The notes beneath the pieces were generated by a model. That model saw only the letters and a program-made list of their open reading frames with translations. It had not been told where the DNA came from and did no database searches. A DNA stretch of 64,000 nt, taken from assembly GCF_029360725.1 (NCBI RefSeq), contig NZ_JARKMY010000001.1, forward strand, positions 1,240,001-1,304,000, written 5' to 3'. The position numbers and the translations under genes are program-made. The first letter of the stretch is position 1; each line of letters starts with the position of its first letter. Source of the stretch: Chryseolinea sp. H1M3-3 (GTDB lineage Bacteria; Bacteroidota; Bacteroidia; Cytophagales; Cyclobacteriaceae). Below, piece by piece: positions 6,831 through 11,573 of this stretch.

Positions 6831-8849
6831 ATGAGGCTGAGAGTTCTCGTGTTAATCTCCTCCATTTTTTTGATGTCATGTGGCATTGAAAAGAAGGCAA
6901 ACAAAGCATTCATTTTAGGCAAGTATCAAAACTCAATTGACCTGTATAAAAAGGTCGTGAGTAAAAATGCTAACAACGGCAAGGCCAATTATTTCATTGC
7001 CGAATCTTACCGACTGAGCAATCGTCCGAAAGAAGCCGAGGCTTATTATGCAAAAGCCGGAGGCAAAGGAATTGACAAAGATTCCGTGCAGTTCTTTTAT
7101 GCACAATCTTTAAAGGCTAACGGCAAATATGCAGAGGCACGTCAGCAGTTGGATGAGATGATTAAGAGCACCAGTAACAACGCGCTGAAGGACCGCGCAC
7201 AGGCCGAGCGGAACGGATTAGCATACCTCGAGCAACTGAATGAAAAAACAAGCTACTATAGGGTAAAAAATCTTGAACTGATCAATACTCCTTCGAGTGA
7301 GTATTCTCCGGTGTTTTTAAACAACGAGTTATATTTCACCTCGTCACGCGGCAATGATAAAGTCTACGAAGCCACCGGTACCCCATTTACTGATATTTAT
7401 AAGGTAGCAAGTCGCGGAGCAATTGTTGATGTTGCCACGGTTGCCCCGTTACCTGCAGGAATTAACTCATCAAGCATTAACGACGGATGTATCACCTTTT
7501 CTCCAGACGGTAAAACCATGGTCTTTGCAAAAGGTAATTCAGGCAAAAGAAAAAGTACAGAAGACGTTGACCTCTATATCTCAAGGTTTAGAAATGGCGT
7601 ATGGTCTGACCCTATTATGATCAACATCAATGAGCCCGGTGCATGGGATTCGTCTCCGGCGTTCAGTCCTGATGGTCGTACATTATATTTTGCATCTAAC
7701 CGAAAGTCGCGGGGCAGAACTCAGATTAGTTATGGTGGTACGGATATTTACTCAGCACAAATGGATACGCGCGGAAGATTTTCCCGCGTGAGAAATCTTG
7801 GACCTGAGATTAATACACCAGGCAATGAACTTTTTCCCTACATGGCGGAAGACGCAAAATTATATTTCGCATCTGACGGACATCCTGGGTATGGCGGTTT
7901 GGATTTATTCGTAGTGAAACGTGCTAACGGAAAAACAGTCATTGAAAATCTGGCCCAGCCCGTTAATTCCTCCGGCGATGATTTTGGAATATTTTTATTC
8001 CGTCCCGATCGTGGCTTTTTAACCTCAAACCGTGAGGGCGGCAAAGGCGATGATGATATCTACACTTTCGTAAATGAAGACCCCAACCTGAAGGTTGTAA
8101 ACTACTACCTTCAAGGCATTACCTATACTCAGGATAAAGAGGGTAAGCTTCAAATTCTTCCTAACACAAGAGTTAATCTACTGGATGGCAAAGGAGAATT
8201 GATGCAAGACTACGTCACGGGAGACGACGGAAAGTTTTTGTTTCGTGTATATGACAATGAAGACTACAACCTCGTTGGGGAAACTGATGGATACTTGGTG
8301 AAACGCCAGCCCTACACGACGAAAGGCAGAGGTGTTGATCCATCGACATTGAAAGATCTGATCACCAATGTCACGTTAGATACGATACTCGTGCTTGATA
8401 AGATTGAACTCAATAAAATTTTTGCGCTCGAAAATATCTACTACAATTATAACCGGGCCGATATCCGGGAAGATGCTGCTAAAGAATTGGATAAACTGGT
8501 CCAACTCCTTATTGATAATCCCGAAATTAAGATTGAGCTAAGTTCCCACACCGACAGCGTCGATACGGACGCCTTCAACTTAAACTTATCTCAACGACGC
8601 GCCGAATCTGCCGTCAAGTATATAGTTCAAAACGGCATAGCTCCGGATCGATTGGTAGCCAAAGGGTATGGTGAGTCCAAGCCAATTGCAAGAAATACAA
8701 ATCCCGATGGTACTGATAACCCAGTCGGTAGACAGAAAAATAGACGAACAGAGTTCAAAATTCTTGAAATTGGTGTCATCCCAAAATCACTTCAAGGGGA
8801 TGAGCCCATAGACGATGAGGAGGATAAATACTTCAATGAAGGAAATTGA
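6831..8849 (+). CDS. PorE-like TPR/propeller/OmpA lipoprotein
   Basis: A 672-residue exported lipoprotein: the signal peptide ends in the lipobox 'LMSC' at Cys 17. The domains in order are TPR-like repeats (about 25-140), PD40/WD40-like propeller blades (about 150-420, with repeated 'FSPDGKTMVFA' and 'FSPDGRTLYFASN' motifs), a carboxypeptidase regulatory-like beta-sandwich (about 425-515) and an OmpA C-terminal peptidoglycan-binding domain (about 545-655, 'LSSHTDSVDTDAFNLNLSQR'). This is the architecture of PorE of the type IX secretion system, proposed to tie the machinery to peptidoglycan, but similar OmpA proteins occur in several copies in Cytophagales. Orthology to PorE is therefore only probable. 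Confidence 0.85.
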   Translation: MRLRVLVLISSIFLMSCGIEKKANKAFILGKYQNSIDLYKKVVSKNANNGKANYFIAESYRLSNRPKEAEAYYAKAGGKGIDKDSVQFFYAQSLKANGKYAEARQQLDEMIKSTSNNALKDRAQAERNGLAYLEQLNEKTSYYRVKNLELINTPSSEYSPVFLNNELYFTSSRGNDKVYEATGTPFTDIYKVASRGAIVDVATVAPLPAGINSSSINDGCITFSPDGKTMVFAKGNSGKRKSTEDVDLYISRFRNGVWSDPIMININEPGAWDSSPAFSPDGRTLYFASNRKSRGRTQISYGGTDIYSAQMDTRGRFSRVRNLGPEINTPGNELFPYMAEDAKLYFASDGHPGYGGLDLFVVKRANGKTVIENLAQPVNSSGDDFGIFLFRPDRGFLTSNREGGKGDDDIYTFVNEDPNLKVVNYYLQGITYTQDKEGKLQILPNTRVNLLDGKGELMQDYVTGDDGKFLFRVYDNEDYNLVGETDGYLVKRQPYTTKGRGVDPSTLKDLITNVTLDTILVLDKIELNKIFALENIYYNYNRADIREDAAKELDKLVQLLIDNPEIKIELSSHTDSVDTDAFNLNLSQRRAESAVKYIVQNGIAPDRLVAKGYGESKPIARNTNPDGTDNPVGRQKNRRTEFKILEIGVIPKSLQGDEPIDDEEDKYFNEGN

Positions 8850-8925: not shown

Positions 8926-9702
8926 TTAGGCCGCTTTTGCCTTCTCAATATTTTCCAATTGAACTTCCTTGTGTCTTTTCAATGTAATGACTCCAATTTT
9001 ATCCAAAACTTTCATAACCAAATAAGTTGGATCGATCTCGTGCCAGCGGATTCCGCCAAAATTAGGGCGTGATCCATTTTTATGGTGATTGTTATGGTAA
9101 CTTTCTCCCATCATTAAGAAATCTACCGGAAGAAAATTCCGTGAAGTATCGCCCACTTCGAAGTTTCTGTATCCGTATTTATGCGCAAACCAGTTAATAA
9201 TTGCACCATGAATCGGGCTTAATAAAAATTGGATAGGCAATAATAACCATAACCACCACACGTCAGCGTAGACATAGTATATGGTAATGTATACACCAGC
9301 CCAGAAGATCCGTGACGGCCATGAGCGAGCGATTTTATCAAAGGCTTCCCACTGAGGCACACCTTCCGTGAAACGTTTTTCCGGGATAAGTTTTTTGTTA
9401 GCGATGTCCGAATAGATCGTTTTTGTTTTCCACATCATATTCCAAATCGTTTCGTCGTATTTAGGAGAATGTGGATCATCTTCAGTGTCAGCAAACGCAT
9501 GGTGCATGCGGTGCATAACTCCGTAGCCGTAAGGGCTTAAATAATTCGAACCTTGAAATATCCAGGTAAGCACATAAACGACCTTTTCCGTGAATTTACT
9601 CATCGTAAAAGACTTGTGCGCAGCATAGCGATGCAGAAAAAATGTCTGAAAGAATAGCGATAGATACCAGCTCGCTATGAAGAATACCAAAATTACGGTC
9701 AT
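8926..9702 (-). CDS. Fatty acid (acyl-CoA/acyl-lipid) desaturase
   Basis: A 258-residue integral membrane protein with the three histidine boxes of the di-iron desaturase family: 'HRYAAHK' (near 24), 'HRMHH' (near 64) and 'HNNHH' (near 205). Four hydrophobic segments flank them. The enzyme introduces a double bond into an acyl chain using O2 and an electron donor, adjusting membrane fluidity. At 258 residues it is shorter than the second desaturase in this window. It lies 108 bases downstream of the ECF sigma factor gene on the same strand, with a candidate ECF41-type promoter in that gap, so it is a likely target. Regiospecificity cannot be told. Confidence 0.9.
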   Translation of the reverse strand: MTVILVFFIASWYLSLFFQTFFLHRYAAHKSFTMSKFTEKVVYVLTWIFQGSNYLSPYGYGVMHRMHHAFADTEDDPHSPKYDETIWNMMWKTKTIYSDIANKKLIPEKRFTEGVPQWEAFDKIARSWPSRIFWAGVYITIYYVYADVWWLWLLLPIQFLLSPIHGAIINWFAHKYGYRNFEVGDTSRNFLPVDFLMMGESYHNNHHKNGSRPNFGGIRWHEIDPTYLVMKVLDKIGVITLKRHKEVQLENIEKAKAA

Positions 9703-9766
9703 AATTAAAATATAGGTTTAGATACTACAAAAGCGAAAAAGCCCGGAAAGGGTTCATTTAGTGTAA

Positions 9767-9792
9767 GACAGATCGAATGGAGATTTGTGACA
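9767..9792 (-). promoter_or_regulatory. Candidate ECF41-type promoter upstream of desaturase
   Basis: On the minus strand TGTCACA (9792-9786) is followed after 15 bases by TGTC (9770-9767). The ECF41 promoter that I recall is TGTCACA-N16-CGTC, so the -35 is exact and the -10 differs by one base and one base of spacing. It stands about 65 bases before the desaturase start, beside an ECF41-like sigma gene. Confidence 0.5.
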
Positions 9793-9810
9793 GATTAAGA
9801 GAAAAAAATT

Positions 9811-10431
9811 TTAAGATTTCTTAATAGAATCCGAAATACCTTCCTTTTGAAGCTCATTTACCAGTTCAACAGCGTTTCCCATATAACAGGCTTTACGAAA
9901 ACTTTCAACAAACTTTGACGTGTCAGGCAGTTCAAAATTTATTTTGGAAGTCTCCTCTGCCAACTTCTTTTTGGCTCTGCAAAAAAGTTGACGGCAATGA
10001 TCTTTCTTTTTATCCAAAGCCTCCTGAAGAGCTTCGTAGTCAAAGTCAAAAACTTCTTTCAATACGTAGACAGCCCGTTCCAAGGGTTCTAGTTTTGCTT
10101 GTAAAATTTTGTAGGCCTTGGCCATTTCCACATCAAAATCCAAATGAGCGAAGCTGGTTTCCTTAAACCTTCCAAGGAGTTCTGACAAATTGTGTTGGTT
10201 GAATAACTCTTCTTTCTTTTTTCTCAACGCATTGAGGTGATTGATGCAATTGTTCTTAACGGCCTTGATCAGGTAGGCTTTTGTATTCTCAATCTTCTGA
10301 GGCCCGAGCGTTAACCATTTCAAAAAGGTTTCCTGTACGATGTCTTCCGCATCTGCTTTACAGCGCACAAGGTTATAAGCAATGGCTTCTAACAAAGGGC
10401 GGTAGAGGATGATGGTCTTTTCGTGATTCAT
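9811..10431 (-). CDS. ECF41/SigJ-like sigma factor with truncated C-terminal extension
   Basis: A 206-residue extracytoplasmic function sigma factor. Region 2 is at about 8-75 ('RCKADAEDIVQETFLKWL'), region 4 at about 110-160 with 'LEPLERAVYVLKEVFDFDYE' and 'DHCRQLFCRAKKKL', a signature of the SigJ/ECF41 group. ECF41 proteins normally carry a full SnoaL-like domain of about 120 residues that controls activity. Here only about 35 residues follow ('SKFVESFRKACYMGNAVELV'), matching the first helix, then a stop. The DNA beyond the stop does not continue the domain in another frame that I can see. No anti-sigma gene is adjacent, which fits ECF41. The flanking desaturases are likely targets by position. 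Confidence 0.85.
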   Translation of the reverse strand: MNHEKTIILYRPLLEAIAYNLVRCKADAEDIVQETFLKWLTLGPQKIENTKAYLIKAVKNNCINHLNALRKKKEELFNQHNLSELLGRFKETSFAHLDFDVEMAKAYKILQAKLEPLERAVYVLKEVFDFDYEALQEALDKKKDHCRQLFCRAKKKLAEETSKINFELPDTSKFVESFRKACYMGNAVELVNELQKEGISDSIKKS

Positions 10432-10440
10432 AAATCAAAA

Positions 10441-10448
10441 CAAAGATA
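10441..10448 (-). promoter_or_regulatory. -7 element of the sigma factor gene
   Basis: TATCTTTG on the minus strand matches TAnnTTTG exactly. It ends 9 bases before the ATG at 10431, so the leader would be only a few bases long. I see no TTTG at the -33 position. Confidence 0.5.
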
Positions 10449-10634: not shown

Positions 10635-11573
10635 ATGACAAATCCAACTGTATCCCCCGAAGTAAGAAGTAAACCCATCATTGCACAGGAAATTGCCTTT
10701 GCAGGTATGCATCTTTTGCCGCTCGGGGCCTTATTTACTGGAGCAACGTGGTTTGACTGGACGATTTGCGCAGTTCTTTATGTTACACGAATGTTTTGGG
10801 TCACCGGTGGTTATCATCGCTACTTTGCTCATAAATCATACAAAACATCGCGCTGGTTTCAATTCATCATTGCCTTTATGGCACAAACAACAGCTCAAAA
10901 AGGAGCTTTGTGGTGGGCTGCCCATCACCGCCATCACCACAGACATAGCGATACCCCTGCCGATCCGCACTCAATGAAAATATATGGTTTTTGGTATTCA
11001 CACATTGGATGGATTGTAGGTCCTGATTTTAAAAAGACCGACTACAAGGTTATTGGTGACTATGCGAAATATCCTGAACTAGTCTGGCTGAACAAACATT
11101 ATCTTGTACCGCCATTCATTCTTGCGCTGGTAGTCATGGCGTTGGGCGGAATTGTGAACGGTGGAAGCATTACCATGATGTTTACTACCGCCGGCTTTTC
11201 TTCTTTATTTGTCGGTTTCTTCTTAAGTACCGTGATACTATATCATGCTACGTTTTCGATCAATTCCATTATGCACAAATTCGGAACGCAACGTTACGAA
11301 TCACATGATGAATCCAAAAATAGCATCTGGCTTGCACTATTAACACTGGGAGAGGGTTGGCACAACAATCATCACTACTATGAAGTAGCCGCTCGTCAGG
11401 GTTTTTTCTGGTGGGAGATCGATATAACTTACTATATTCTCCGAGGTTTTGCAGCGGTTGGGTTAATCTGGGACCTGAAAGAAGTTCCAAAGCACATAAA
11501 ACTTTCAAAAAACAAACAGGAAGCTGCTGCGTTACGTAAAGAGTTTGATGCGGAAAAAATTAATGCTGCGTAA
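10635..11573 (+). CDS. Acyl-CoA/acyl-lipid desaturase (delta-9 type)
   Basis: A 312-residue di-iron desaturase. The boxes are 'HRYFAHKSY', 'HHRHHHRHSD' and 'EGWHNNHHYY', with the family's four membrane segments between them. The strong 'GEGWHNNHH' box and length resemble delta-9 stearoyl-type enzymes. The ATG at 10635 is chosen; the frame extends upstream to a GTG at 10524, but that stretch reads as promoter DNA and has no family homology. A TACCTTTG -7 element at 10564-10571 lies inside that extension, which supports the later start. The gene is divergent from the ECF sigma factor gene. The two desaturases are clearly distinct proteins, not a recent duplication. Confidence 0.9.
   Translation: MTNPTVSPEVRSKPIIAQEIAFAGMHLLPLGALFTGATWFDWTICAVLYVTRMFWVTGGYHRYFAHKSYKTSRWFQFIIAFMAQTTAQKGALWWAAHHRHHHRHSDTPADPHSMKIYGFWYSHIGWIVGPDFKKTDYKVIGDYAKYPELVWLNKHYLVPPFILALVVMALGGIVNGGSITMMFTTAGFSSLFVGFFLSTVILYHATFSINSIMHKFGTQRYESHDESKNSIWLALLTLGEGWHNNHHYYEVAARQGFFWWEIDITYYILRGFAAVGLIWDLKEVPKHIKLSKNKQEAAALRKEFDAEKINAA

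Follow-up and report, generated by a model that had tools for sequence, protein, structure and literature searches.

DesK/DesR and DesT/FabR are known bacterial desaturase regulators, and they act as a two-component system or as repressors. The system described here would have the same output, membrane unsaturation, set instead by a dedicated alternative sigma factor. The closest described sigma factors are those of the ECF41 group (Ecf41Bli, Ecf41Rsp and SigJ; model TIGR02957), which are defined by a SnoaL-like extension of about 100 residues with three motifs. According to the available part of PMC3426412, Ecf41Bli cut at 204 is about 20-fold more active and Ecf41Rsp cut at 206 about 120-fold, and both proteins are inactive when the whole extension is removed; the -10 element of the B. 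licheniformis ECF41 promoter is reported there as TGTT. The part of PMC8999054 available to us describes the extension as inhibitory through contact with the linker motif, with part of it seemingly required for activity. Among the titles and abstracts listed by our literature search, none describes a short sigma factor paired with a desaturase, and an earlier mention in the ECF41/42 or ECF re-classification papers may exist.

The DNA analyzed here, which we call the window, is a 64,000-nucleotide stretch of the genome of Chryseolinea sp. H1M3-3. Its minus strand encodes a 206-aa ECF sigma factor (9811-10431) with Sigma70_r2 and Sigma70_r4_2 domains, which domain and profile searches, motifs and a tree assign to an ECF41-derived clade lacking the SnoaL domain. 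The next gene on the same strand encodes a 258-aa membrane fatty-acid desaturase (8926-9702; PF00487 by domain search) whose sequence is distantly related to that of stearoyl-CoA desaturase 1 (E 7.6e-6). A second PF00487 desaturase (10635-11573, plus strand) flanks the sigma gene on its far side and is divergent; no exact TGTCACA precedes this second desaturase. The direct neighbors of the sigma gene in the window are these two desaturases and no anti-sigma gene adjoins it, a trait shared with the ECF41 group. Two flanking desaturases are often seen at such loci: in genomes G167 and G352 the gene after the sigma gene is a second desaturase of the same appearance, and at locus L035 one lies upstream.

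A gap of 108 bases (9703-9810) separates the stop codon of the sigma gene from the ATG of the desaturase at 9702. The preliminary description had placed an exact TGTCACA -35 element and a near-match -10 element in this gap on the correct strand, and all of this is present: read from the letters of the window, a bipartite site TGTCACA-N15-TGTC spans the minus strand from 9792 to 9767, with the -35 element at 9786-9792 and, 15 bases past it, the -10 element TGTC, followed by TTAC, at 9767-9770. The desaturase ATG lies 90 bases downstream of the start of TGTCACA. The site agrees with the ECF41 promoter, TGTCACA-N(16+/-1)-CGTC, differing in a spacer that is mostly 15 and in a -10 of TGTC instead of CGTC. 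The window shows no enrichment of TGTCACA (3 observed on both strands, 6.6 expected), and scaling that expectation by hand to the 108-base gap gives about 0.01, so that the chance of below 1% quoted earlier for the 7-mer was about right. Allowing up to two mismatches, the bipartite site has 5 matches in the window against 13.3 expected, and the single exact one is that at 9792-9767. A genome search for TGTCACA-N15/16-YGTC, which the preliminary description had proposed, found the exact N15 form once in 6.88 Mb, in the desaturase gap, with 5 matches for a reversed-pattern control. The N16 form has two matches (control, 5), none at the desaturase gap; both (L176 and L177) lie in or over ORFs, with no evident relation.

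Comparison of the gap among relatives, on which the preliminary description had staked its claim, found the site conserved. A first set of 39 genomes, including Chryseolinea sp. H1M3-3, held a close short sigma factor in 18. At 14 of these 18 loci a co-directional desaturase lies within the fetched flank, and TGTCACA is present in all 14 gaps, with TGTC 15-16 bases past it except in two gaps that have GGTC or GATC instead. TGTCACA is the sole 7-mer common to the 14 gaps, and it is also found in nine of nine when one gap per genus is taken. We then widened the set by a desaturase search and by a sigma search over 390 genomes of the order. In a recount from the DNA, with start codons guessed by script, exact TGTCACA precedes the desaturase in 47 of the 49 short-sigma genomes with a readable upstream region, these genomes sharing ancestry and not being independent. 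The two exceptions are G267, which has TGTAACA, and G409, the Saprospiraceae genome of locus L043, which has a short sigma factor and a 60%-identical desaturase and no site. Two genomes were left out of the 49: G010, the fiftieth genome read in the recount, whose gap is interrupted by the end of a contig (with TGTCACA visible where the sigma contig stops), and G023, which has a short sigma factor and in which no desaturase was found at E 1e-20. Other sigma targets are possible in G023 and at L043. Loci L034 and L046 were not added to the 47, their sites being identical to the ones in G252 and G052.

The same pattern appears at named sigma loci, of which 80 were kept from at least 270 found (11 short, 69 long). 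Sigma factor, desaturase and site occur together at 9 of the 11 short loci kept; at L037 (genome G410) the desaturase is on another contig with the site present, and L043 is the exception already given. By the same search pattern, none of the 69 long loci kept has a desaturase beside it in the fetched flanks.

Sigma gene and desaturase are unlinked in 13 of the 47 genomes, and there too the desaturase has kept its site, which argues against a gap merely inherited along with its neighbors. These are G015, G029, G167, G352 and nine f19 genomes, seven of them from one genus; G410, G141 and G233 are not counted here, linkage in them not being established. At five fetched g69 loci the gene after the sigma gene is GAPDH-like by eye. 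In genomes without a short sigma factor, TGTCACA occurs upstream of 1 of 24 desaturase genes (13 + 11), with no -10 partner there; this contrast is not one between orthologues, because the desaturases of sigma-lacking genomes form a more distant subfamily (at most 61% identity). Since the genomes also have common ancestry, a Fisher value calculated for the contrast is not to be taken as a probability.

Given this distribution, we consider it highly probable that the desaturase promoter is TGTCACA/TGTC, read by polymerase carrying the adjacent SnoaL-less sigma factor, and that membrane unsaturation is set in this way. The preliminary description had proposed that the sigma factor controls the desaturase, and the proposal gains support from the site in 47 of 49 genomes, from the 13 unlinked ones and from 18 of 19 genomes without a full-length ECF41 match. 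The conservation strongly suggests recognition of the site by the short sigma factor. By analogy with the published truncations of other ECF41 proteins, the sigma factor would be active without a SnoaL-type off switch, and from the enzyme family of its target we infer a role in membrane fluidity. The proposed mechanism would begin with transcription of the short sigma gene by the housekeeping polymerase, an autoregulatory site being absent. The short sigma factor, free of the SnoaL off switch, would then drive the desaturase from TGTCACA-N15-TGTC and, with this membrane fatty-acid desaturase as essentially its one gene, would set membrane unsaturation. For the input, control by synthesis or stability of the sigma factor would be the simplest guess. 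The locus thus offers a concrete candidate target for an ECF41-type sub-clade of which our literature search found no description, and it would connect the desaturation of membrane lipids in Cytophagales with an alternative sigma factor.

The preliminary description had also called the sigma factor ECF41-like. This stands in so far as the NCBIfam models that fit it best, SigX4/TIGR02957 and SigJ, are both of ECF41 type; it does not extend to the curated model as a whole, since the match to TIGR02957 scores 149.3 bits, below the cut-off of 323.25, and covers only positions 6-192 of a profile of 281. In this phylum such a cut-off is a strict one, because none of the 20 genomes searched reaches it, including the two full-length paralogues of Chryseolinea sp. 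H1M3-3 (228 and 193 bits). The 206-aa protein lacks most of the three-motif extension of about 100 residues. A WLPEP-like linker motif, sought with a relaxed pattern, is found in 0 of 12 short proteins and 69 of 71 long ones, and DGGG in 0 of 12 short and 63 of 71 long, the short ones stopping just ahead of where DGGG would be; the short sigma factor likewise has no SnoaL body and no NPDK end. The preliminary description had missed the loss of the SnoaL body and of WLPEP. As had been claimed, the target also departs from those usual for ECF41, being a PF00487 desaturase and not a COE-type neighbor gene (carboxymuconolactone decarboxylase, oxidoreductase or epimerase). Because the SnoaL extension, WLPEP, a COE neighbor and a score at the curated cut-off were each looked for and are lacking, the short sigma system is not to be classed as a canonical ECF41 member. 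An AlphaFold model of the sigma factor has low global confidence (pTM 0.40) and is usable as an ECF fold only; its best Foldseek matches are ECF sigma factors, with TM-scores near 0.3.

The short form belongs to a lineage. A scan of the 390 genomes of the order gave 37 short matches (frames 200-248, at least 184 bits) and 34 long ones (frames 279-346, at most 167 bits). In a quick tree with 27 long ECF41 proteins and 4 other ECFs, 21 short proteins form one group (SH-aLRT 99), and the short sigmas group with the long ECF41 proteins against the other ECFs (SH-aLRT 98, with warnings about long outgroup branches). The short clade would therefore sit among the ECF41 types, either nested within the long forms or sister to them. 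A pseudogene or frameshift as the origin of the short form was considered and rejected: each of the 18 close relatives has the short protein, as do 11 of the 80 named loci kept (of at least 270) and 37 of the 71 order-scan matches, and the short proteins form one clade.

The C-terminal tail of the sigma factor (approximately residues 164-206; 9814-9942, minus strand) shows homology with the proximal portion of the extension of ECF41 proteins and stops before the place of DGGG. We compared 45 distinct tails, drawn from 54 located in 59 entries, with a model of 71 long extensions; 29 of the 45 score at least 8 bits, and 0 of 900 shuffled tails do. Given this homology, the SnoaL domain was therefore probably cut away, not never gained. 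DGGG starts at residue 205 in two Bacillaceae relatives with a plausible start codon, the start of a third being ambiguous, and the short proteins thus seem to end naturally where the laboratory cut was made, Ecf41Bli itself lying outside the alignment. The end point of the short sigmas is thus similar to that of the laboratory-truncated Ecf41Bli(204) and Ecf41Rsp(206), as these are described in the available part of PMC3426412. Unlike the laboratory truncations, the short sigmas are natural and clade-wide and have also lost the linker motif. Both contact partners named in the part of PMC8999054 available to us, the linker motif and the SnoaL body, are missing together in the short clade and the proximal part is kept, which makes the clade a natural experiment on the roles of the SnoaL domain and the WLPEP linker.

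Our best reading is that these proteins are a single clade of SnoaL-less, ECF41-derived sigma factors in Cytophagales and kin, dedicated to the desaturase. Beyond this, we tentatively suggest, as a proposition that may about as easily fail as hold, that the clade is naturally hyperactive: evolution would have repeated the laboratory cut, removed the linker contact site and kept the spacing mostly at 15, insulated from N16 and N17 paralogue sites, turning a signal-gated sigma factor into a dedicated driver of a single desaturation gene with control shifted to sigma abundance. It is also possible, if somewhat doubtful, that the sigma factor controls the desaturase and is itself restrained, be it by a partner encoded elsewhere, by a SnoaL-like protein that has been split off or by a ligand that binds the tail. 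This is a variant of sigma control of the desaturase, and its probability overlaps with that of the parent reading. The retained tail, homologous to part of the ECF41 extension, would suit such a partner, and many ECF sigma factors are held by anti-sigma factors according to the available part of PMC3426412. However, visual inspection of the flanks of the short sigma genes, about 1.5 kb in length, revealed no gene for an anti-sigma factor or a SnoaL-like protein, and the inhibitory contact partners indicated in the available part of PMC8999054 are those that the short clade has lost.

The available part of PMC9723704 gives TAnnTTTG as the primary-sigma box for Flavobacterium. A match to this box, TATCTTTG, lies at 10441-10448 on the minus strand, 10-17 bases before the sigma ATG, with no TGTCACA there. 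Of 18 short-sigma genes, several with guessed starts, 8 have TAnnTTTG in the 60 bases before them, as against a fraction of 0.024 of 60-base stretches drawn at random from the window; these stretches are mostly coding and hence give a low estimate of the background. TGTCACA is found before 0 of the same 18 genes, a further difference from the ECF41 group. Together, the box before 8 of 18, TGTCACA before 0 of 18 and the box in 0 of 14 desaturase gaps suggest expression of the sigma gene by the housekeeping polymerase, which we propose with moderate to weak confidence, and a sigma factor without autoregulation on which desaturase expression depends.

To describe the site itself we compared 50 distinct sites, selected for TGTCACA, so that the seven -35 columns are fixed by choice. 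Beyond the -35 element, conservation extends to positions 8-9, where A is found in 43 and 45 of the 50 sites, and to positions 24-28, which read GTCTT (41 to 45 of 50); no base exceeds 27 of 50 at spacer positions 10-21. Among the 47 genomes, the tetramer at N15 is TGTC in 29, GGTC or AGTC in 6 more, GATC in one (G008) and TATT in one (G221). The remaining 10 have TTGT, CTGT, TGGT or AGGT at N15, where an element of TGT or GGT type is displaced downstream by one base, so that the -10 is deviant in 12 of 47 in total. In the f19 genomes (L215-L222), where sigma factor and desaturase are unlinked, the -10 shifts to a TGTTTTA- or GGTTTTA-like form one base later, which suggests co-drift of sigma factor and promoter.

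These features bear on a different account of the motif, namely that it is a transcription-factor site and that the housekeeping sigma factor transcribes the desaturase. Housekeeping promoters of Bacteroidota are easily missed, and the finding of TAnnTTTG in 0 of 14 desaturase gaps is weak evidence at such gap length. But the element is bipartite with near-fixed spacing, it is no palindrome, its presence follows that of the sigma factor, and it matches the experimentally known ECF41 promoter as given in the available part of PMC3426412. We regard a transcription-factor site as very unlikely.

The regulon appears to be small and nearly single-site. In 16 genomes the pattern TGTCACA-N15-KGTCT has 23 matches, 12 of them at the target desaturase. 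There is no genome-wide enrichment of the motif in these 16 genomes, the 11 matches away from the desaturase not outnumbering the 13 of a reversed-pattern control. Nine of these 11 matches fall within an ORF of at least 150 aa on one strand. A wider scan of the 390 genomes found a looser pattern in 69. Among the 30 loci listed from that scan, the target desaturase is downstream at 14, and one carries a full-length ECF41 with DGGG followed by a gene that is CMD-like by eye. A single-target regulon is not universal, because genome G196 (L259/L264) has a second exact site elsewhere in the genome, 48 bases before another PF00487 desaturase. Of 30 homologues of this second desaturase, 5 were unreadable; among the 25 read, at least 4 of them from an internal Met, the exact site precedes one and is lacking before 24. 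The second site in G196 is an apparent recent, lineage-specific gain to the regulon, again of a desaturase.

One could also suppose that the site is the promoter of a full-length ECF41 paralogue encoded elsewhere, with the short sigma factor a bystander or decoy. The genome of Chryseolinea sp. H1M3-3 does hold two full-length paralogues, with WLPEP or WLPVP, and a related site at the gene after each. The paralogue in contig C2 (L174, 3212-5115) has TGTCACA-N17-TGTC, counted by hand, upstream both of its own gene and of one encoding a flavodoxin fold. Next at this locus comes a small protein which, judged by eye, looks like a free-standing SnoaL/NTF2-like domain. Behind the paralogue in contig C7 (L175, 3078-4525) comes a CMD gene preceded by TGTCACG-N16-TGTC (also counted by hand), a classic ECF41 pair with a variant -35. 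Neither site has the N15 spacing of the desaturase promoter, and the N15, N17 and N16 spacings may insulate the three sigma systems of this genome from one another. Moreover, in a TIGR02957 search of 20 short-sigma genomes, full-length ECF41 proteins were found in Chryseolinea sp. H1M3-3 alone; the other 19 have nothing above 80 bits beside the short sigma factor, and 18 of those 19 keep exact TGTCACA. Weaker matches to the model end before profile position 175, are ordinary ECF sigma factors, and occur also in 7 of 14 control genomes. With no match in 19 of 20 genomes, we rejected a full-length ECF41 as the reader of the desaturase site; its probability is slighter still than that of a transcription-factor site. 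A chance match, for which one could cite the roughly 6.6 occurrences of TGTCACA expected per window, has a negligible probability and is ruled out by an exact 7-mer that is invariant, in 47 of 49 genomes, within otherwise divergent gaps.

Beyond the target desaturase and convergent to it, the plus strand of the window encodes a 672-aa protein with TPR, PD40 and OmpA domains (6831-8849), which we take to resemble type IX secretion envelope proteins.
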